Below the pieces are notes generated by a model, which was not told the DNA's origin, did not search any database, and saw only the letters and a program-made list of their open reading frames with translations. Below are positions 40,043 to 50,797 of a DNA stretch of 64,000 bases, in pieces (the first letter of the stretch is position 1; each line of letters starts with the position of its first letter). Both the position numbers and the translations under genes were made by a program. Origin of the DNA: Anaerostipes sp. MSJ-23 (GTDB lineage Bacteria > Bacillota > Clostridia > Lachnospirales > Lachnospiraceae); contig NZ_JAHLPY010000002.1 in the NCBI RefSeq assembly GCF_018918155.1, positions 124,001 to 188,000 on the forward strand, in the 5' to 3' direction.

Positions 40043-40067
40043 TTCACAGAGTATTTTACTCTACGAA
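40043..40067 (-). repeat. Recombinase-type site 1 (upstream border of the int cassette)
   Basis: TTCACAGAG, core TATTTTA, CTCTACGAA: two imperfect 9-bp arms around a 7-bp core. Read on the minus strand it gives TTCGTAGAG-TAAAATA-, the same arm and core as site 2. Confidence 0.75.
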
Positions 40068-40180
40068 GAATTTTCGACAAATCATAGCATAAATTTTTTA
40101 TGAATAAACGCAAAAATTCTATATTCTATTTAAAAGTATCATCTTAAAATTGTAATGTCAATAAAAATTTCCATTTTTAG

Positions 40181-40210
40181 TTACAACAATCGAAAAAATA
40201 CATTTATAAT
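40181..40210 (+). promoter_or_regulatory. Candidate promoter of the recombinase gene
   Basis: TTACAA, 18 bases, TATAAT, inside the putative invertible segment and about 137 bases before the start. The rest of the 39991-40347 gap holds the terminator, site 1 and the direct repeat listed next. Confidence 0.55.
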
Positions 40211-40239
40211 AGGTAATTGGACCTCACATACACTTGTTT

Positions 40240-40261
40240 ATTATAGTCAGAATTATAGTCA
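40240..40261 (+). repeat. Tandem direct repeat ATTATAGTCA x2
   Basis: Ten-base unit at 40240 and 40252, spacing 12, just downstream of the candidate int promoter. Possibly a regulator or recombinase arm-binding site. Confidence 0.55.
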
Positions 40262-40347
40262 TATATGATTTTCATAAAATATAAAATTTAGGGCAGACCT
40301 TAGAGATAAAACAAGCTTCAAAAAAATATTAATATGGAGGTCATATT

Positions 40348-41490
40348 ATGTCAAGAAAAGGTGAAAGTATTTTTAAAAGAAAGGATGGTAGGTGGGAAGC
40401 ACGCTATATCAAAGAAAGGACACCAGAAGGGAGGGCTATTTATGGATATGTTTATGCAAAATCTTATCTTGAAGCAAAAAAGAAACGTTATGAAGTTTTA
40501 AAACAATTAGGAAAAGATTCTGTTGAAAACAAAAAACTAATCAAAAATAAAGCTATATTTACAGATCTTGCAGATTTATGGCTTAGATCTTTGCAACCTC
40601 AAATAAAAAAATCCACATATATTAAATATCAAAATATTATTCATTCTTATATTTATAAAGGATTTTACAATGTAAATGTGAACGAAATTTCAGCTAATCA
40701 GTTAAATATGTTTTGTAACAATCTTCTCTTAGCAGGAGGCAAACAACATCAGGGATTATCACCAAAAACAGTTGTAGATATACTTTCTGTTATTCGAAGT
40801 ATTCTATCTTATGCAAATCTTCAAAAAATTGAAACGCAATGTACTGGAAAAGAAGTTGTTATAAAACAGTCTGCTGCAAAAATGTATATTTTCAGTCATT
40901 CAGAACAATCTATTTTATGCAACTATTTAGTTGATCATTTATCCAATCGAAACTTTGGAATTCTATTGAGTTTATTTACTGGAATAAGAATTGGAGAACT
41001 TTGCGCGCTTCGGTGGGAAGATGTTTCAATTGATGAAAAGACAATTTATATTCATAAAACGATGCAAAGATTGCAGACACAAGGAAATTCCGCAAAAAAA
41101 ACGGAAGTTATTATAACTTCACCAAAGAGTTCTTGTTCTATACGAACGATACCAATTCCAGATAATCTCATTTTTCTTATAAAACATTTATCTCAAATAA
41201 ATCATGGTTATGTCTTAACCGGAAAAGATACCAAATATGTAGAACCTCGTACAATGCAAAATCATTTTAAAAAAATATTGTTAAAAGCAGGTCTTCAGCC
41301 GGTGAAATTTCACTCTTTGCGACATACATTTGCTACTCGATGTATTGAAGTTGGATTTGACATTAAAAGTTTAAGTGAAATTCTTGGACATGCCAATGTC
41401 AATATTACAATGAATCGTTATGTACATCCAACAATGAAAATGAAAAGAGAAAATATGCAGCGTTTATCTGATTTATTTATTGTCAGCTAA
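40348..41490 (+). CDS. Tyrosine recombinase (integrase/invertase)
   Basis: 380 aa. The N-terminal arm-binding motif is FKRKDGRWEARYIKERTPEG, followed by a SAM-like core-binding domain (about 65-165). The catalytic domain has R214 in FTGIRIGELCALRW, H322-x-x-R325-H in HSLRHTF, the second GH near residue 349 and nucleophile Y358 in MNRYVHPT. The catalytic set is complete. GGAGG precedes the ATG. No other mobile-element genes (excisionase, relaxase, phage) are nearby. It lies between two inverted copies of a two-armed site with identical cores, so I read it as an invertase for this locus, not a remnant integrase. Confidence 0.93.
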   Translation: MSRKGESIFKRKDGRWEARYIKERTPEGRAIYGYVYAKSYLEAKKKRYEVLKQLGKDSVENKKLIKNKAIFTDLADLWLRSLQPQIKKSTYIKYQNIIHSYIYKGFYNVNVNEISANQLNMFCNNLLLAGGKQHQGLSPKTVVDILSVIRSILSYANLQKIETQCTGKEVVIKQSAAKMYIFSHSEQSILCNYLVDHLSNRNFGILLSLFTGIRIGELCALRWEDVSIDEKTIYIHKTMQRLQTQGNSAKKTEVIITSPKSSCSIRTIPIPDNLIFLIKHLSQINHGYVLTGKDTKYVEPRTMQNHFKKILLKAGLQPVKFHSLRHTFATRCIEVGFDIKSLSEILGHANVNITMNRYVHPTMKMKRENMQRLSDLFIVS

Positions 41491-41508
41491 TCTGGTCATA
41501 GGTATTAA
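41480..41508 (+). promoter_or_regulatory. Candidate promoter of the pilus operon, inside the invertible segment
   Basis: TTGTCA, 17 bases, TATTAA. It overlaps the end of the recombinase gene and reads through site 2 toward the pilus genes. Confidence 0.45.
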
Positions 41509-41541
41509 TACTTATGGTAATAAAAGGAAATCATAGTTTTT

Positions 41542-41566
41542 TTCGTAGAGTAAAATACTCCACGAA
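41542..41566 (+). repeat. Recombinase-type site 2 (downstream border of the int cassette)
   Basis: TTCGTAGAG, core TAAAATA, CTCCACGAA. Its first 19 bases are the exact reverse complement of 40049-40067 in site 1. Confidence 0.8.
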
Positions 41567-41603: not shown

Positions 41604-42128
41604 ATGGCCGAAAAGGGATTGCGCAGAATGAAGCGCACAGAACTGATTGAAATTATATACGCGCTTAAAAGTGATGAGGAAAGAATCAGAAAAGAAAAAG
41701 ATGAGCTATGGGATCAGCTTCATCAGCGCAATATCAAAATTGAAGAGGCCGGCTCTATTGCAGAAGCATCGCTTAATATTAATGAGGTTTTTGTATCAGC
41801 ACAAGCAGCAGCAGATGATTATTTAAATTCAGTGAAAGCAGTCAATGCTGAACAGGAAGCTTATATACAATCGGTAAAAGAAAATGCCGAACAGGAAGCT
41901 ATGCAGATTATACTGCAAGCCAGACAAAAAGCAGAGGTAATTGAAGCGCAGGCAAAACAGAAAAAAGAAGAAATAGAAGAAGAGTGCAAGTTAATGAAAG
42001 AGCAGGCCACAAAGGAAATAGAAGGTCAGTGGGATGATTATCGAAGAAAAATCATCGAAGTTCTAGATTGGCATAAAGAGTTGAGCAAGGAGGCATTAAA
42101 TGAAGCAGGAGAATCTGAAGCCGGTTGA
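41604..42128 (+). CDS. Coiled-coil protein of the pilus operon (DivIVA-like)
   Basis: 174 aa, no signal peptide. Almost entirely helical and charged, with long heptad-like stretches (LKSDEERIRKEKDELWDQL, EQEAMQIILQARQKAEVIEAQ, KKEEIEEECKLMKEQATKEI). The layout recalls DivIVA/GpsB or V-ATPase E-type coils, but I cannot assign a family with certainty. It overlaps the signal peptidase gene by 29 bases. Being first in the operon, it may position pilus export or assembly at the membrane. That role is inferred. Confidence 0.8.
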   Translation: MAEKGLRRMKRTELIEIIYALKSDEERIRKEKDELWDQLHQRNIKIEEAGSIAEASLNINEVFVSAQAAADDYLNSVKAVNAEQEAYIQSVKENAEQEAMQIILQARQKAEVIEAQAKQKKEEIEEECKLMKEQATKEIEGQWDDYRRKIIEVLDWHKELSKEALNEAGESEAG

Positions 42129-42690
42129 GATTCCTTCTATGGAAGAAGTGACGCAGGAAAGGAATCGTCTTGCCTATCAAAGCCGATATCGGCGAATATT
42201 GCGAAGTACGATTTCATCGCTAATTGTTGTAGCGGCTATTGCTGTTTTAATGGCAACTTTGTTATTTCCAGTTCTTCAGGTATCTGGCGATAGTATGGAA
42301 CCAACTTTACATGATCGCAATATTCTTCTTCTTATAAAAACACATGATTTAAATACAGGAGATCTTTGCAGCTTTAGCTGGCAAAATAAACTTTTAATCA
42401 AGCGAATAATCGGGGGACCGGGAGACGTAATCAACATTGATGAAAAAGGGGAGGTTAGTGTAAATGGAAAGGTTCTTGATGAGCCTTATGTTGATGAACT
42501 TGCATTGGGAGAGTGTGATCTGAAATTTCCTTATCAAGTTCCGGAAAATCGTTATTTTGTTCTTGGGGATCATAGAAGTGTTTCGATTGATAGTCGTAGC
42601 AGTGCAATTGGGTGTATAGATAAAAAACAAATTGTTGGAAAAGTTTTTTTAAGAATATGGCCATTAAAAGACTTTTCAATTATGAAATAG
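42100..42690 (+). CDS. Signal peptidase I, pilus-linked
   Basis: 196 aa with one transmembrane helix (about 35-58). Catalytic Ser65 lies in SGDSMEPTL and Lys101 in LLIKRIIGGPGD. Box E reads GDHRSVSIDSRS. All catalytic motifs of type I leader peptidases are intact. A dedicated signal peptidase is common in Gram-positive pilus islets, where it processes pilin precursors or assists their assembly. It ends 12 bases before the adhesin gene. Confidence 0.92.
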   Translation: MKQENLKPVEIPSMEEVTQERNRLAYQSRYRRILRSTISSLIVVAAIAVLMATLLFPVLQVSGDSMEPTLHDRNILLLIKTHDLNTGDLCSFSWQNKLLIKRIIGGPGDVINIDEKGEVSVNGKVLDEPYVDELALGECDLKFPYQVPENRYFVLGDHRSVSIDSRSSAIGCIDKKQIVGKVFLRIWPLKDFSIMK

Positions 42691-42702: not shown

Positions 42703-45558
42703 ATGAAAGAGAATTTAAACAAATATATAGAAAAAATTAAAACAAATCGTAAAAACTATCGAAAATATGCATCTATTTTTATTGTACTTGCATTGATTAC
42801 AGTTGTTGGAGTAAATGGATGGCTTCATCAAAAAGGAGTTTCCATGACAGCGGATTATCAATGTGGAAAAGAAGAACATCAACATACGGAGGATTGTTAT
42901 AAAGAGGTATTGATTTGCGGAAAGGAAGAATCCACGGAAGAAGGAGGACATCAACATACGCAGGATTGTTATAAGAAAGAACTTGTTTGTAAGATTCCGG
43001 AACATGAACATACCATGGAATGTATTTCTGACGATAAGGCAGATGCAGAGACGGAAACAGACTGGGAAAAAACAATTCCGCAAAAATTAAGTGGTGTATG
43101 GGCAAAGGATCTTGTAGATGTTGCAAAATCACAAGTTGGTTATAAAGAGAGTACAAAAAATTTCCGATTGGATGAGGATGGAAAAACGAAAGATGGTTAT
43201 ACGCGATATGGAGAATGGTATGGTAACAAATATGGCAATTGGTCGGTAATGTTTGCAGCATTTTGTCTGCATTATGCAGGGATTCCGCAAAAAGAGGTAC
43301 CTGTAAATTCTGGATGTGAAGCTTGGATGGTAAATCTAAAGGATGCGCAACTTTATCATAATGCAGATAACTATCAACCAACGGTTGGGGATATTGTTTT
43401 TCTTGATTCGGAGGAAGAAGATGGAGTGGCAGACCATGTTGGAATTCTAGAAACTGTTAAAAAAGATTCAAAAGGAAAGATAACTAGTTTTGTAGTTGTG
43501 GAAGGTGATTCTTCCAAAGAGGTAAAAGAAAATATATATTCTATCAATGATCGATCCATTATTGGTTATTGTGCATTGCCAGAGAATAAAGAACAAGAAA
43601 CAGAAAAAACAGGGGAAACGACAGAAAAGACAACCGAGAAAACAACAACCGAAAAGAAATCCGAGAAGAAGACAAAAGAGGTGTCAACTAAAAAGAAAAT
43701 TCAAAAGCAAACAAAGAAGAGTGTAAAAGCAGCAGGGGATGCAAAAAGCACGGTTGATACTTGTAATGTGACAGTGACAGTAAACCTAAATTGGTCGGGT
43801 ACAAGGGATAAAGCAGTGAATGTTTATTTGATCAATCAGCAAACAGGTGAACGAGTAGGAACAGTCACACTGAATAAAGGAACCGATAGCAATACAGTGA
43901 CATTTAAAAATGTTTCGAGAGTTGATGGAGATGGAAAAGATGTTTCCTATGGAGTAGAGCTAGAAAAGGTTGATGGATATATCAATGGATATAATTTAGA
44001 TATTTCTTTGGATCAGACTAATGAGTGGAAAGAGAGTGATACGCTTTGGGTAAAGGCAACATCGATTAAGGAGGGCAATCACTATCTTCTTTTGACAAGT
44101 GATGCTACAGGACCTGGAAATAGTAAATTTATCAGAGCAGATAGTACCATTACTCCAACAAACATGATATCGGCAGATCTAGCATTATCAAAAGGACCGA
44201 TCACAGCAGCAAATGGAACCTCTTATTCTCCATATTTGAAATCAGATGGTGGAGAAGATGGTGCCTTATGGACAGCAGAAAAAAGTGGTGCAGAGTTTTT
44301 ATTTTCCAGTGATTATTTAGCAGGAAAAAATATGCCAGGATATTATCTTGAGAGCACAAAATCGTTAAGTAAAAAGAATAATAATAAGTGGAAGGTTGAT
44401 AAGGACACCAAGGAAATTACAAAAAATGGAGAAACGTTATATCCATTTGAAAAGGTTGATCCAGTATATGGAAAAGTCCGAACGGTAAATATGACAGTCG
44501 ATGCAACTTATCAATCGAAAGGAGAAGCAGAGGAGACACAGGAATATACAACGATTCGAGTATCAAAAAACTGGCAGGATGAAAAAGGAAATAAACTTAC
44601 AGAAGGTCTTCCATCAAGTATTGAAGTAACATTAAATGCAGATGGAAAAGAAGCATCGATAAAAGATGCCAAAGTTTCTCTTTCGGCAGATAATAATTGG
44701 ACATATGAATGGACCGTGCCAAGGTATTCTTTTGAAAATGGATCGAAGAAAGAAATCTCATATGATGTTTCAGAAAGTGAAGTGAACGGATTTAAGTTCG
44801 TCAATAAAGAAAAGAAACAAGAATTTGGTGAGAAAACCACTGCCTGGGTATTAACAGATGATTTTGAGGATAATGGAGAATTTATTTTAACGACTTCTCC
44901 AAAAACAGGATCAGTTGGAGCACTGACAGCTACAAAGAATGGAGCACACTGGGCAGATGGAAGTCAACAAAAAACCAATGTTGAAAAAGGGGATTTAAAA
45001 GTAGGAGATAAAGTTTATAAAGATTGTCAGTATATTTTAAATCCTTCTGGAAATATTATATGGAAAACTGGAACGGGAAAAGAAATGACAGCACATCAGC
45101 ATGGTACCCATAAGATGTGGACGCTTTATAACGAAGTTGTCAATGGATATTTAAAAAATAATGGGCAGGGAGATATTAGTTCCGATGTCAAACAGGAATG
45201 TTGGTTTTATTATAACTGGTATACTGGAACTCCTGGAAAGAGACCGCCAAGTAATCCAAAGTCTGAATGGAGCAATGTATTAGGAAGTTATAATGATTAC
45301 TTCTTATTATCGAACAATCATACAGGGGATGGTGGTTCAACAACAGCACAAACATTTTATCTATATAAGAAAGTCGAGGCACAGCCCGTGATTTACAAAA
45401 TTGAACTTACTAATAAAAAAGAGGGAGAGATTTATGAGCTTCCAGAAACTGGTGGGCCAGGAACAAAAATGTTTACAATCATTGCAGTTGCTCTTATGGG
45501 CTCAGCATTGTTGTATGGATATTATTTGAGATGTAGACGAAGAGGGAGGGAGATGTAA
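42703..45558 (+). CDS. Large LPXTG pilus-tip adhesin with degenerate CHAP-like domain
   Basis: 951 aa. Membrane segment at about 24-42. Then three Cys/His repeats (CGKEEHQHTEDC, GGHQHTQDC, CKIPEHEHTMEC) that look metal-binding. Next is a CHAP/NlpC-like region (about 133-290) whose nucleophile position is Ser181 (NWSVMF) while His245 is kept (VADHVGIL), so it is probably not a peptidase. A Thr/Glu/Lys-rich linker (about 293-345) leads to Ig-like and Cna_B-type domains. The C-terminus has LPETG at about 913 with a hydrophobic helix and RCRRRGR. It is the likely tip pilin of a sortase-built fibre. Confidence 0.88.
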   Translation: MKENLNKYIEKIKTNRKNYRKYASIFIVLALITVVGVNGWLHQKGVSMTADYQCGKEEHQHTEDCYKEVLICGKEESTEEGGHQHTQDCYKKELVCKIPEHEHTMECISDDKADAETETDWEKTIPQKLSGVWAKDLVDVAKSQVGYKESTKNFRLDEDGKTKDGYTRYGEWYGNKYGNWSVMFAAFCLHYAGIPQKEVPVNSGCEAWMVNLKDAQLYHNADNYQPTVGDIVFLDSEEEDGVADHVGILETVKKDSKGKITSFVVVEGDSSKEVKENIYSINDRSIIGYCALPENKEQETEKTGETTEKTTEKTTTEKKSEKKTKEVSTKKKIQKQTKKSVKAAGDAKSTVDTCNVTVTVNLNWSGTRDKAVNVYLINQQTGERVGTVTLNKGTDSNTVTFKNVSRVDGDGKDVSYGVELEKVDGYINGYNLDISLDQTNEWKESDTLWVKATSIKEGNHYLLLTSDATGPGNSKFIRADSTITPTNMISADLALSKGPITAANGTSYSPYLKSDGGEDGALWTAEKSGAEFLFSSDYLAGKNMPGYYLESTKSLSKKNNNKWKVDKDTKEITKNGETLYPFEKVDPVYGKVRTVNMTVDATYQSKGEAEETQEYTTIRVSKNWQDEKGNKLTEGLPSSIEVTLNADGKEASIKDAKVSLSADNNWTYEWTVPRYSFENGSKKEISYDVSESEVNGFKFVNKEKKQEFGEKTTAWVLTDDFEDNGEFILTTSPKTGSVGALTATKNGAHWADGSQQKTNVEKGDLKVGDKVYKDCQYILNPSGNIIWKTGTGKEMTAHQHGTHKMWTLYNEVVNGYLKNNGQGDISSDVKQECWFYYNWYTGTPGKRPPSNPKSEWSNVLGSYNDYFLLSNNHTGDGGSTTAQTFYLYKKVEAQPVIYKIELTNKKEGEIYELPETGGPGTKMFTIIAVALMGSALLYGYYLRCRRRGREM

Positions 45559-45644
45559 GGTTCTGCACTCTTAGCCTGAAAACTATTCCAGGTTATGAAA
45601 GTATCCAATAAAAAATGATTTACAAAAGAAAGTGGGGAATGATG

Positions 45645-47282
45645 ATGAAGATCATGAAAAAGACATGGACTCTGTTATTGAGTCTTGTAATGGTACTGGC
45701 AATGAGTGTTACAACATTTGCAGCAGACAGTACGTTAAAAATTAAAACAACAGCAGGACATACTTACAAAGTATATCAGATTTTAACTGGAGATGTAACA
45801 ACAGGAGATAATGGAACAAAAAAATTATCGAATCTTGGAAAAGGTTCTTCTGTGACATCAAATGCAACAGCACAAGAGATTCTTAATGCCCTGAAAGATA
45901 AAAAAGATAATGAACTTGGAGATGCAGCCTATGAATATGTTAAAGGTGGCAAAGAAGTCGCAACGATTTCAGGTGATGGAAGTGAAAAGACAGTTACAAT
46001 TCCTACAGGTTACTATATTGTAACAGACGAAGTAACAGGTGAGACGAAGGATACTGTTTCCCGTTATATGGTAGACGTTGTAGGTCCTACAGAGATGACA
46101 CCAAAAACATCAACAACTCCTGACATTGATAAGAAAATTATTGATACAGATGCAAACCAAGCATTAGATGACAGTAAAAAAACAGATACAGCTGCAATTG
46201 GTGACACAATTAATTATGAAGTAACTGGTAAAGTTCCAGATTATAAAGGGTATAAATACTATTATTATGTCCTTAATGATACATTATCAAAAGGATTGAC
46301 ATTAGATAAAGATTCTTTTGTAGTAACGGTTGGAGGAAAACCATTAACAAAGGATACAGATTATTATGTGTATACAACAACAAATCAAGATGGAACAACA
46401 AGTTTTAAACTTGCTTTTGAAAATATCAAGAACTTTGAAGTAGGTGCAGACATTTCTGTAAAATATAATGCTACAGTTAATGAAAATGCAGTGATTGGAA
46501 AAGATCCTAACACGAATACAGTAAAGCTGGAATATTCTAACAATCCAAATTCTTCTGAAAGAGGAGATAAAGAACCTGGTATTCCAGGAGATAAAGTACC
46601 AACAGGGGAAACTCCAGATAGAGTGACAAAAACTTATGTTACAGAATTAAAACTTTTAAAAGTAGATGAACAAGGAAATAAGCTGACAGGGGCTGAATTT
46701 ACTCTGACAGGAGAAAACCTTCAGACAATTAAGTTTACAACAGGACAGGCGTTTGTAGAAAATGAGAATGGTACATACTGGAAATTAAAAGATGGTACTT
46801 ACACAACAGATGATCCAAACACAGAAGGAATGGATCAGAGTAAATATGAAAATACAACAAAAAAATACAAAAAAGAAACTGTTATAACATCCCAGACTGC
46901 AGATGCAGGAAGCAAAAAGGTAACAGCATTTGTTGATGAAAATGGTCAGATTCAGTTTACAGGTTTAAATGCTGGAAAATATACTTTGACAGAAACGGTT
47001 GTACCTAAAGGATACAACAAAATCGACCCAATTGAATTTACTATTTCCGCAACACAGGATGGTTCTACAACATTAGTTGGTGGAAATATCACATGGAGTT
47101 CTGACAATCATGATATTACATATAGCGATGGAGTTTTTGGAATTAAAGTTACAAACAAATCAGGTTCTACTCTTCCATCTACAGGTGGTATTGGTACAAC
47201 AATCTTCTATATTATCGGTGGTGTCTTAATGCTTGGCGCAGCTGTTTTACTCATTACAAAAAAACGTATGAGCGCAAGATAA
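45645..47282 (+). CDS. Major (backbone) pilin, isopeptide-forming
   Basis: 545 aa. Signal peptide KKTWTLLLSLVMVLAMSV...FAA. A TPK at the end of the first domain (VDVVGPTEMTPKTST) fits the pilin-motif lysine. Next come a fimbrial D2-type domain (GDTINYEVTGKVPDY) and a Cna_B domain with E-box YTLTETVVPKGY. The cell-wall signal is LPSTG near 509, with a hydrophobic helix and KKRMSAR. GTGGGGA places the start at the ATG at 45645 (45642 possible). It is followed by the class C sortase that should polymerise it. Confidence 0.93.
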   Translation: MKIMKKTWTLLLSLVMVLAMSVTTFAADSTLKIKTTAGHTYKVYQILTGDVTTGDNGTKKLSNLGKGSSVTSNATAQEILNALKDKKDNELGDAAYEYVKGGKEVATISGDGSEKTVTIPTGYYIVTDEVTGETKDTVSRYMVDVVGPTEMTPKTSTTPDIDKKIIDTDANQALDDSKKTDTAAIGDTINYEVTGKVPDYKGYKYYYYVLNDTLSKGLTLDKDSFVVTVGGKPLTKDTDYYVYTTTNQDGTTSFKLAFENIKNFEVGADISVKYNATVNENAVIGKDPNTNTVKLEYSNNPNSSERGDKEPGIPGDKVPTGETPDRVTKTYVTELKLLKVDEQGNKLTGAEFTLTGENLQTIKFTTGQAFVENENGTYWKLKDGTYTTDDPNTEGMDQSKYENTTKKYKKETVITSQTADAGSKKVTAFVDENGQIQFTGLNAGKYTLTETVVPKGYNKIDPIEFTISATQDGSTTLVGGNITWSSDNHDITYSDGVFGIKVTNKSGSTLPSTGGIGTTIFYIIGGVLMLGAAVLLITKKRMSAR

Positions 47283-47378: not shown

Positions 47379-48215
47379 ATGAAGAAACATTTTAGCACAA
47401 TCATTTTAATATTGGTATTTTTCGTGGGTCTTTCCGTACTGTTATATCCGACGATCAGTAATTATATCAATCAGAAAAATCAATCAAGAGCGGTGATTGA
47501 TTATGATACGGCGGTTTCAAAAATGAAAAAAGATGACTACAATGCTTATTTTAAAAAGGCAGAGTTGTACAATCAAATGCTAGCAAAACATCCCTCGTAT
47601 TTTTATGAACCGGATCAATTACCTGGTTATAACAATATTTTAAATATTGAGAAAACAGGAATGATGGGTTATATTTCGATTGAAAAAATAGGAGTTGAGT
47701 TGCCCATTTATCATGGGACGAGTGACAGTATATTGCAATCAGCAGCAGGTCATTTAAAAGGGACTAGTTTTCCAATTGGTGGAACAAGTACGCATAGCGT
47801 TATTTCTGCACATAGAGGACTTCCAAGTGCAAAATTATTTACAAATCTAGATGAACTTGAAAAAGGTGATACATTTACAATTACAATATTAGATCGATTA
47901 TTAACTTATGAAGTCGATTCAATTTCAATTGTTTTGCCAGATAAGGTTGATCAATTGCAAATACAAGAAGGAAAAGATTATTGTACTCTTATGACGTGTA
48001 CTCCATATGGAATTAATACGCATCGGTTGCTTGTCCGTGGACATCGGATACCAAATAAAAAAGATAGCAATATTAGAGTCATTTCAGATGCTTATCAGAT
48101 TGAACCAATTGTTATTGCACCAATCATTGCAGGGATTCTTTTGTTCCTATTATTGGTTTGGATGTTGATTCGTAATAGAAGAAAGAAAACACGAGGTGAA
48201 AAGAATGAAAAATAA
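47379..48215 (+). CDS. Class C (pilin-polymerising) sortase
   Basis: 278 aa with N-terminal and C-terminal membrane helices (about 6-26 and 240-263), typical of class C. The active site has His in ISAHRGL, Cys207 in LMTCTPYGIN and Arg in THRLLVRGHR. The lid region before the catalytic domain is normal in length. It joins LPXTG pilins through the pilin-motif lysine. It overlaps the minor pilin gene by 11 bases. Confidence 0.94.
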   Translation: MKKHFSTIILILVFFVGLSVLLYPTISNYINQKNQSRAVIDYDTAVSKMKKDDYNAYFKKAELYNQMLAKHPSYFYEPDQLPGYNNILNIEKTGMMGYISIEKIGVELPIYHGTSDSILQSAAGHLKGTSFPIGGTSTHSVISAHRGLPSAKLFTNLDELEKGDTFTITILDRLLTYEVDSISIVLPDKVDQLQIQEGKDYCTLMTCTPYGINTHRLLVRGHRIPNKKDSNIRVISDAYQIEPIVIAPIIAGILLFLLLVWMLIRNRRKKTRGEKNEK

Positions 48216-48942
48216 TTGTATGTTAAAATGGCTGGCAGTTTTTCTATTGTCTATCACAGTGACTGCAGGATATATGGTTCCTGTCCGTGCAGATGACAGT
48301 ATACCTGAGGAAAAAACAGGTTCTATCAGGGTTACATTGCGTAACAGTAAAAAAGAGGTTGTTTCTGGTGGAGAGATTTGTCTTTATCAGGTAGCTTCTA
48401 TAGAACAGGATATGGATGGCAATTTAAAATACATATATATCAATGGTTTTGAAAACTGTGGTATCAAGCTTGAAAATCTTGATGATAGTAATCTTGCGAA
48501 GCAGCTTGAGGCAAAGATTTCACCAAGTTCAAAGAAAGTAACAAAGACAATTGGAACGACTGGAACAGTGGTGTTTGAGAATCTTCCGACAGGTCTTTAT
48601 CTTTTAAAACAGAACCAGGCAGCAAAAGGTTATGAAAAAATTAGTTCTTTCCTTGTATCGGTACCAATGAAAGATGGAGAGAATTGGACGTATGATGTAG
48701 ATGCGACACCAAAGGTAGAAACAGTGACACCAATAACGCCAGATACACCGAATCATCCAAATACACCAAATCATCCGAATACGCCGAATAATCCAGGGGG
48801 CTCTGGAGGCTCTGGTGGAGGTTCCCGTAGTTCTAGACTGCCACAGACAGGACAGTTAGATTGGCCGATTCCTGTACTAGCTATTTCTGGAATGCTCATG
48901 ATTGTAATTGGATGGGTTTTACGGAAAGGAAAGAACGAATGA
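48205..48942 (+). CDS. Minor pilin with LPQTG anchor
   Basis: 245 aa. Signal peptide ending near RADD. One Cna_B-like domain (GSIRVTLRNSKKEVVSGGEICLY to VFENLPTGLYLLKQ). A short Pro/Asn repeat stalk (PNHPNTP units, then GGSGGSGGGS). LPQTG, a hydrophobic helix and RKGKNE complete the sorting signal. GAGGTGA overlaps an earlier GTG, so the ATG at 48205 is the start. It is a likely base or accessory pilin. The stalk should span the wall. Confidence 0.9.
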   Translation: MKNNCMLKWLAVFLLSITVTAGYMVPVRADDSIPEEKTGSIRVTLRNSKKEVVSGGEICLYQVASIEQDMDGNLKYIYINGFENCGIKLENLDDSNLAKQLEAKISPSSKKVTKTIGTTGTVVFENLPTGLYLLKQNQAAKGYEKISSFLVSVPMKDGENWTYDVDATPKVETVTPITPDTPNHPNTPNHPNTPNNPGGSGGSGGGSRSSRLPQTGQLDWPIPVLAISGMLMIVIGWVLRKGKNE

Positions 48943-49547
48943 AACATAAAGTAGGTATTTTTTGTATGTTTCTTGGGACGGTGCTAGTGTTTTTAGCACT
49001 GTCTCTTTTCCTGTATAATCAGTGGGATGCAAAGAGAGCACAAAAAGCTTCTGCATTGGTATTAAAACAGTTGGAAAAAAAGCTTGATAAAGAAGTAAAT
49101 TCTACTTCGGAAACTTCGTTTATTACAGATACATACAAAAAAATGAAAACAGTGAAAATCGGTGGATATGAATACATTGGTTATCTTTCGATTCCATCTG
49201 CAGGTTTAAATCTTCCAGTTATGTCAAAATGGAGTTATGCGGGCCTTAAAATTGCACCAGGAAGGTTTTCTGGTTCTGTTTATATGGACAATATGGTCAT
49301 CGCAGGGCATAACTATGCAAGACATTTTAGTCCAATTAAATGGTTGGCTATTGGAAGCAGTGTATATTTCACGGATATGGAGCATGTTGTGTGGAAATAT
49401 AAGGTTGTTACAAGAGAAACTTTGCAGCCAGTACAGGTAAAGGATATGACGATAAAAACGAAAAAAGATAGTTGGGATCTTACACTGTTTACCTGTAATA
49501 CAGGAGGACAAACAAGATGTGCGGTACGATGCATTAGAATTCGTTAA
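48939..49547 (+). CDS. Second sortase of the pilus operon
   Basis: 202 aa with one N-terminal membrane helix (about 7-27). Catalytic residues are His in IAGHNYARHF, Cys186 in LTLFTCNTGG and Arg in RCAVRCIRI. It lacks the C-terminal helix of class C enzymes, so it is a candidate housekeeping-type or base-anchoring sortase that attaches the finished fibre to peptidoglycan. Subclass is uncertain. Its ATG overlaps the stop of the minor pilin gene. It is the last gene before recombinase-type site 3. Confidence 0.88.
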   Translation: MKHKVGIFCMFLGTVLVFLALSLFLYNQWDAKRAQKASALVLKQLEKKLDKEVNSTSETSFITDTYKKMKTVKIGGYEYIGYLSIPSAGLNLPVMSKWSYAGLKIAPGRFSGSVYMDNMVIAGHNYARHFSPIKWLAIGSSVYFTDMEHVVWKYKVVTRETLQPVQVKDMTIKTKKDSWDLTLFTCNTGGQTRCAVRCIRIR

Positions 49548-49577: not shown

Positions 49578-49602
49578 GTCGCTGGGTATCCTACTCTACG
49601 AA
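49578..49602 (-). repeat. Recombinase-type site 3 (downstream of the pilus operon)
   Basis: GTCGCTGGG, core TATCCTA, CTCTACGAA. The right arm is identical to that of site 1. The left arm is poor. The core reads TAGGATA on the minus strand. Confidence 0.65.
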
Positions 49603-49911
49603 AAGCTTTTTATTAAAATAAGATAGGTTTGAAATTCTCCTATCGGATATATTGAAACCTTTCATATATTTTAGGTTACAACTATAAAATCAATCAATTT
49701 ATGATTTCCCATGTTATGCATAAATTGCAATGTATAATAAGTATTCAGCAGTACTTTTTTCCTTTCATAATTGATGAGATAATTATGGTCGCAGTTGTGA
49801 TCACAAACTGATTTTTATTTTATAGAAAAGAAAACATTTTTTGTTTTATCGTCAAGAACTCTGGTCAAAATCGTTTTCACCCCTCAAAAAACGTAGAGAC
49901 TTGCGATATTT
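49603..49911. other. Gene-free putative invertible segment between sites 3 and 4
   Basis: No reading frame worth calling. It contains TTTTAGGTTACAAC, nearly the same as TTTTAGTTACAAC at 40175 in the upstream cassette, a TATAAT at 49733 without a good -35 box, and the 12-bp perfect palindrome TTGTGATCACAA at 49795-49806. A partial arm-like ACGTAGAG lies at 49891. It sits in front of the AP2-domain gene. Confidence 0.5.
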
Positions 49912-49936
49912 TTCGTAGAGGAGGATACTCAACGAA
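49912..49936 (+). repeat. Recombinase-type site 4 (upstream of the AP2-domain gene)
   Basis: TTCGTAGAG, core GAGGATA, CTCAACGAA. The left arm is identical to site 2. The core matches inverted site 3 in six of seven positions. Confidence 0.75.
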
Positions 49937-49990: not shown

Positions 49991-50797
49991 ATGAAAAAAA
50001 ATTTAATAGGGAAAAGATTTGGAAAACTTGTGGTAATAGAACCAACAGATCAAAGAAAAAACGGGTATATGATCTGGAAGTGTCACTGTGACTGTGGAAA
50101 TGATATTCTCGTAGATTACCGTAAATTAATGTGTGGAACAGCCATGGATTGTGGATGTTCGTCAATAAAGGGTAAAGTTGATTTAAGAGGCAGACGGTTT
50201 GGAAAGCTTACGGCGATTGTACAAGCAAATAAGACAGATCCAAAAGATGGGTGGATTTGGATCTGTCGATGTGATTGCGGAGCAATAATAGAAATACCAA
50301 CACGTCATTTGACCAATGGACGGCGTAAAAGTTGCGGCTGTCTTAGTAAACCACCATTAAAAAAGTATGTTGGAAAAAAATTTGGTAATTTAACGGTGCT
50401 TCACTATGCAGGAAAAAGAAAAGGTTCTCATTTTTGGCATTGTCGTTGTGATTGTGGAAATGAATTAGACGTTCAGCAGTCAAATCTGCAAAATGGACAC
50501 ACAACAAGTTGTGGATGCAACGTCGATATTAAGAAAAATATTCATTTTGTAAATGGAACGAGCGTGGAAGCAATTCGCTCAAAAAAATTAAATAAAAATA
50601 ATAAGAGCGGTGTTCGTGGTGTCTATTGGAATAAGAAAACCCACAAATGGATAGCGCAAATAACATTCCAGGGAAAAACAAAGAGTCTTGGAAGTTATCA
50701 GACATTAGAAGAAGCTGCTGCTGTAAGAAAAGAAAAGGAGGATTTTTTGTTTGGCGAATTTCTAGAGTGGTATGATCGACAGGAAAAAAAGAAATAA
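49991..50797 (+). CDS. Triple zinc-ribbon-like repeat protein with AP2 DNA-binding domain
   Basis: 268 aa. Three tandem units of about 50 residues each carry the pattern G-x-x-F-G-x-L, then W-x-C-x-C-D-C-G, then a Cys-G-Cys (CHCDCG...DCGCS; CRCDCG...SCGCL; CRCDCG...SCGCN). Each looks like a four-Cys metal site. After a linker comes an AP2-type domain (SGVRGVYWNKKTHKWIAQIT, about 203-245). The protein should bind DNA. Similar AP2 domains occur in mobile-element and phage proteins. It starts 54 bases after site 4, so its transcription may depend on the orientation of the adjacent segment. Confidence 0.82.
   Translation: MKKNLIGKRFGKLVVIEPTDQRKNGYMIWKCHCDCGNDILVDYRKLMCGTAMDCGCSSIKGKVDLRGRRFGKLTAIVQANKTDPKDGWIWICRCDCGAIIEIPTRHLTNGRRKSCGCLSKPPLKKYVGKKFGNLTVLHYAGKRKGSHFWHCRCDCGNELDVQQSNLQNGHTTSCGCNVDIKKNIHFVNGTSVEAIRSKKLNKNNKSGVRGVYWNKKTHKWIAQITFQGKTKSLGSYQTLEEAAAVRKEKEDFLFGEFLEWYDRQEKKK

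Follow-up and report, generated by a model that had tools for sequence, protein, structure and literature searches.

A probable self-contained promoter inverton that encloses an integrase-type recombinase, in front of a sortase pilus operon of Anaerostipes

What does a tyrosine recombinase gene do between two inverted sites that stand just ahead of a sortase pilus operon? Tyrosine recombinases are classical agents of promoter inversion, and such an arrangement occupies positions 40043-41566 of the stretch of Anaerostipes sp. MSJ-23 DNA analysed here (64,000 nucleotides, hereafter the window; Table 1). We consider it likely, with a probability of roughly 0.83, that this segment is a self-contained promoter inverton, assembled in the OFF orientation and turning the pilus ON when flipped.

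The two 25-bp inverted sites with an identical 7-bp core that the preliminary description had placed here were recovered at exactly the same positions. Site A reads TTCACAGAG-TATTTTA-CTCTACGAA and site B reads TTCGTAGAG-TAAAATA-CTCCACGAA; site A and the reverse complement of site B match at all but 3 of 25 positions, those 3 being in the arms, and the cores are identical in the inverted sense. The arms of site A agree with the consensus drawn from 53 homologous pairs. When three mismatches or fewer are allowed, the 17-mer CGTAGAGTAAAATACTC occurs four times in the window against 0.07 expected, and across the entire 2.52-Mb genome the arm pattern matches sites A, B, C and D only; with a looser pattern, all extra matches in the genome scored at or below a backwards-pattern control. 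The tyrosine recombinase is the sole gene inside the A-B cassette of ~1.5 kb, and transfer genes are absent from it.

Table 1. Position of the cassette, the pilus operon and the second inverted pair in the window
Feature	Position	Strand	Remarks
Left site A	40043-40067	-	arms around core 40052-40058, TATTTTA on + strand
Predicted outward promoter TTGACA-17-TACTTT, TG-extended	40133-40161	-	p 0.005 in window; weak -10
Tandem GTCA repeats, 5' side	40246-40261	+	starts 40246, 40258; spacing 12; predicted arm-type sites
Alternative leftward promoter TTGACA-17-TAATAT	40354-40326	-	overlaps recombinase start codon
Tyrosine recombinase, integrase type	40348-41490	+	380 aa; N-terminal beta-beta-beta-alpha (arm-binding-like) domain predicted
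Tandem GTCA repeats, 3' side	41482-41498	+	starts 41482, 41495; spacing 13; predicted arm-type sites
Right site B	41542-41566	+	core 41551-41557, TAAAATA
First operon gene, coiled-coil/DivIVA-like protein	41604-42128	+	start codon 37 bp past site B
Signal peptidase I	42100-42690	+	
CHAP / Cna_B surface protein, LPETG-anchored	42703-45558	+	
Major pilin, SpaH/RrgB-like, LPSTG anchor	45615-47282	+	
Class C (pilin) sortase	47379-48215	+	NF033745 E 4e-83
Minor pilin, SpaA fold, LPQTG anchor	48196-48942	+	
Second sortase	48861-49547	+	true start may be further in
Site C	49578-49602	-	core TAGGATA in arm sense
GTCA repeat pair inside site D	49851-49867	+	spacing 13; resembles 3' end of cassette
Site D	49912-49936	+	core GAGGATA, one mismatch to C

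The gene between the sites, described earlier as a complete tyrosine recombinase gene, is indeed a full open reading frame with a match to Pfam Phage_integrase (E 5.5e-30), and its catalytic residues (R214, K260, H322, R325, H348 and Y358) are intact and invariant in a homologue comparison of 24 sequences. In the predicted model, the N-terminus is composed of strands at residues 8-10, 16-24 and 30-37 and a helix at residues 40-55. The closest solved structure to the model is the Tn1549 integrase (Z 22.9, rmsd 3.0 over 290 residues), and this match spans residues 68-377 only, leaving the N-terminal fold unmatched. Because the structure matches listed mostly begin at about residue 60-70, the assignment of an N-terminal arm domain rests on predicted secondary structure. 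A fim-type (FimB/FimE) invertase was considered and rejected, as such an enzyme is expected to have ~200 aa and no N-terminal domain whereas the present one is 380 aa long with one; its scores against PRK09870 and PRK09871 were 30 and 20 bits, with cut-offs of 221 and 222.

The short tandem GTCA repeats inside each end of the cassette recur in its relatives. Tandem pairs were found at the 5' end of 41/56 loci, where 0.5 would be expected, and at the 3' end of 38/55 loci, where 0.2 would be, mostly 12 bp apart and on the recombinase-sense strand only. Given the predicted N-terminal domain and the Tn1549 integrase as the nearest solved structure, the repeats are probably arm-type binding sites. 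On this reading, the enzyme would be an integrase that has become an invertase and not a FimB-like one.

Relatives of the recombinase were drawn from the family (397 genomes), from the genus and from GTDB contigs, with one genome per species. An inverted pair scoring at least 15 surrounds the recombinase at 61 of 90 loci (Lachnospiraceae and other Bacillota), with the centre-aligned site consensus TTCGYAGAn-T-NNNNN-A-nTCTRCGAA; the median distance from the left site to the start codon is 231 bp, and from the stop codon to the right site 64 bp. Such a pair was present at none of 16 control tyrosine recombinases (XerD-like and others), a small control set because 14 of the 30 loci from the XerD search were left out when the signature or the flanks failed. 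A recombinase inside its own invertible segment had been called unusual, but in the recombinase tree 60 of 77 related enzymes lie embedded within an inverted pair of their own. The window recombinase falls within a well-supported set of nine, eight of them embedded and one at a contig end. We discarded the idea that the embedded architecture is a single clade, as this label requires 12 changes on the tree. At one locus, a small ORF that by eye looks like an IS200-type transposase (L055:10648-11076) is located between the recombinase and the right site and lengthens the segment. The cassette is of a known kind, the promoter inverton, and encloses an integrase-type recombinase, and the family is widespread and little described; in the literature searched, which covered few subscription journals, we found no account of the embedded family or of its outward promoter, arm repeats or locus-specific cores.

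The cores of these sites bear directly on inversion. Within a pair they are identical in 53/53 cassettes, with mismatches in the arms only, and 47 distinct cores are found among the loci. As a control for selection bias, sites were also picked on arm score alone, regardless of their mutual match; 41/41 of the pairs obtained in this way had inverted-identical cores and none had direct-identical cores, with 1.1 expected. Inverted-identical cores are what the homology requirement of strand exchange predicts for inversion.

This pattern also bears on a different view of the cassette, in which it is a minimal mobile element of the Tn916/Tn1549 type whose inverted sites are transposon ends and not part of any switch. 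The likeness is considerable: the Tn1549 integrase has the closest solved fold, an arm-binding-like N-terminus is predicted for the window enzyme, tandem arm-type repeats are located inside both ends, and members of the family precede unrelated operons in different genera. However, Tn1549/Tn916 elements move between targets and their core sequences need not match, whereas the cores of the family cassettes are always identical and inverted, never direct. Both outer arms are kept across unrelated loci, although an insertion would meet arbitrary targets; there are no transfer genes inside the cassette; flanks are conserved around flipped cassettes, as described below; and in L060, L101 and L108 a short inverton adjoins the gene rather than enclosing the recombinase. 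We therefore regard a mobile element as very improbable.

Flipped cassettes were found among the relatives. Two loci of one genome (L111 and L113) have outer flanks that are 88% and 92% identical and cassettes that are 95% identical, and the cassettes are in opposite orientation. Likewise, L054 and L055 are the same locus in a pair of sister species from the genus of the window; both flanks are conserved and the cassette is reversed. A comparison of related strains for both orientations had been proposed as a check; in these two pairs of loci from relatives, the segments are flipped exactly between the sites. Several further locus pairs have a reversed cassette with conservation on one flank. 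Core identity in the family and the two flank-conserved flipped pairs together support cassette inversion well, with flipped forms seen in relatives only. For the earlier claim that the segment inverts itself, the family evidence is thus strong, and by extension the window copy would be active too.

In a census of reference assemblies, the recombinase points toward the operon in 27 cases and away from it in 4, and this 27-to-4 bias suggests that flipping may be slow or biased. The census was too biased to serve as direct proof of flipping, and the flank-conserved pairs were used instead; cassettes at contig ends, taken as a sign of mixed orientation, were set aside as suggestive at most. L111 and L113, both in genome G376, have the same core, TACTTTA, and could for this reason recombine together and rearrange the chromosome, while genome G124 contains four copies with four different cores.

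It may be asked whether the window copy is a fossil of a family that once inverted, now locked in one orientation. The three arm mismatches between sites A and B, the strong orientation bias among assemblies and a relative (L169) that retains a single site before its pilus operon all point in this direction. Against this, the ORF is intact with all its catalytic residues, the cores, arms and repeats are intact as well, and family site pairs with mismatched arms (L111/L113) were found flipped, so that a locked copy seems quite unlikely to us.

Which orientation would be ON depends on the promoter. We scanned the stretches between site and gene on both strands in 56 cassettes, with simple base shuffles as controls. 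A near-consensus TTGACA-17-TATAAT promoter that reads outward, divergent from the recombinase, was significant in 91% of the 56 loci (mean z 3.7) and is typically located ~40 bp inside the left site, compared with 2% of loci at the 3' end reading out and 18% in the direction of the recombinase. In the window taken alone, promoter-like matches were not in excess, and no convincing promoter was found in the 37 bp that lead from site B to the first pilus gene.

The preliminary description had instead put a promoter, TTGTCA-17-TATTAA, at the other end of the recombinase gene, reading into the pilus operon. The letters are present at 41480-41508, but as a promoter match they do not exceed chance (p 0.315) and they are unconserved in relatives, and what was taken for the -35 box is in fact the first of the two conserved tandem GTCA repeats of the 3' end. 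This promoter was rejected on its lack of conservation and its overlap with the repeat. A flip would accordingly not disconnect the pilus promoter, as had been supposed; the conserved promoter points left, so that a flip would connect it to the operon. Because this promoter points away from the operon as assembled, we read recombinase-toward-operon as OFF, the state in which most reference genomes would then be (27 to 4); the pilus is most likely OFF in the assembled orientation and ON in the flipped one.

The opposite polarity, in which the segment inverts but is ON as assembled through read-through from the recombinase gene or a promoter at its 3' end, has some points in its favor. The recombinase is co-directed with the operon in the window and at 26 other loci, and in the window no clear terminator was found from the recombinase 3' end to site B, which makes read-through into the pilus operon possible. 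However, the family promoter is divergent and outward in the great majority of loci and rarely found in the two positions that the opposite polarity would need, the supposed -35 box belongs to a GTCA repeat, and terminator-like hairpins (-8 kcal/mol or lower) are located between the recombinase and the right site in 26% of loci, compared with 5% in shuffles. In L175, inspection by eye showed a strong terminator-like hairpin at this place (GCGCCGCCA...TGGCGGCGCTTTTT). An ON state as assembled is therefore unlikely in our judgement.

In the inverton that we favor, the recombinase would bind the inverted arms TTCGYAGAG / CTCTRCGAA, probably aided by its N-terminal domain, which would occupy the tandem GTCA repeats at both ends. 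Strand exchange inside the identical 7-bp cores would then invert the 1.5-kb segment, recombinase gene included. The outward promoter, of the sigma-A type, would occupy the stretch that separates the left site from the recombinase start and would point in the opposite direction to the recombinase. In the assembled state it would face left, off the pilus operon; when the segment was inverted in silico, the promoter ended 128 bp before the first pilus gene, where it would turn the operon ON.

The sortase pilus operon that had been recognized behind the cassette was borne out by the identification of pilins, two sortases and a signal peptidase. We searched the genus for the same operon with a flipped cassette, and the operon was absent from the 10 other species. 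In more distant copies of the pilus operon, the sites are mostly missing. The closest pilus relative, L175, has a recombinase 59% identical to that of the window and a similar operon behind the site, with recombinase and site at a contig end. A lone site (L169:3102-3126) is located just upstream of a related pilus operon, where neither a recombinase nor a second site was found, and this orphan is a probable relic of a switch.

Several known systems resemble the cassette in part. The E. coli fim switch (fimS with FimB/FimE) likewise combines a tyrosine recombinase, a promoter between short inverted repeats and a pilus operon, but fimS is a gene-free segment of 314 bp with its recombinases outside, whereas in the window an integrase-type recombinase with an N-terminal domain lies inside. 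In Providencia stuartii, a putative fimbrial inverton of 844 bp with inverted repeats encloses a recombinase gene near a fimbriae locus, and the same paper mentions Hin as an invertase inside its own segment (PMC5903667). The P. stuartii case is single and concerns a Gram-negative fimbrial locus, in contrast to the Bacillota sortase pilus and the family with a common site consensus described here. The Salmonella Hin / H segment also encodes its invertase within the segment and carries an outward promoter, but Hin is a serine recombinase with other chemistry and sites. In C. difficile, the tyrosine recombinase RecV inverts a short segment before the surface-protein gene cwpV (PMC2784873); there, RecV is encoded elsewhere and the promoter is outside the switch (PMC2784873). 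In the hCom2 community, inverton group 139, paired with invertase group 35, is found in Clostridia with a nearby tyrosine-type recombinase/integrase and with reads that show flipping; the examples of group 139 are invertons of ~200-230 bp, one of them with 26-bp repeats (PMC11892184). Groups 139/35 may belong to the same family as the window cassette.

A second inverted pair, C/D, is located directly behind the pilus operon, 334 bp centre to centre and ahead of an AP2-domain gene (49991-50797). Its arms are like those of A/B, but its cores differ by one base, a mismatch seen in none of the 53 family pairs. Outside the sites and repeats, the similarity between C-D and A-B is not significant for the 5' region (p 0.145) and marginal for the 3' region (p 0.025). 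C/D is probably a mini-switch and resembles a cassette that no longer has a recombinase gene; the recombinase of the A-B cassette might invert it in trans, and the core mismatch may mean that the pair is decaying. An AP2-domain gene is located behind the pilus operon in another genus as well (L163:11004-11645) and may thus belong to the module of the operon.

The order of elements in the module is site, outward promoter, arm repeats, recombinase, arm repeats and site. As a tentative and broader proposal, in which our confidence is limited, this module could be an integrase-derived, plug-in phase switch that stands before dozens of unrelated Bacillota operons, with private 7-bp cores insulating the copies of one genome from each other; in the window, its recombinase would also work C-D in trans, making a coordinated two-switch system. 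The varied cores suggest ready-made orthogonal recombination sites.

The family cassettes mostly stand before surface-structure genes. The first gene behind the cassette is of the polysaccharide type (sugar transferases, Wzz, epimerases) at L010, L015, L053, L054, L075, L077 and L123, an LPXTG or pilin-like protein at L012, L082 and L091, a sortase at L122, TadZ of Tad pili at L114 and L128, and a type IV pilin-like protein at L079. From its position and promoter, the cassette would control these downstream genes. Phase variation has been described less fully for gut Clostridia than for Bacteroides, and the family leads one to expect that sortase pili, Tad pili, LPXTG proteins and capsules are phase-variable in commensals. 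Because recombinase, site, promoter and polarity are all recognizable, the operon controlled and its ON/OFF state can be read from assemblies.

Less expected kinds of first gene were also observed. At five loci it encodes a TnpB-like protein of ~440-480 aa with a Cas12f1-like TNB domain (L062:10576-11925, L063:7954-9279, L112:5355-6695, L124:8323-9759 and L125:8482-9798); these TnpB-like genes are possibly phase-variable. At another five loci, a multi-HA-domain helicase comes first (L097:7995-10178, L107:4604-6715, L111:8623-10902, L113:4504-6774 and L118:4501-6834), followed by a sugar transferase in L107 and by a DegT-type aminotransferase gene in L113.
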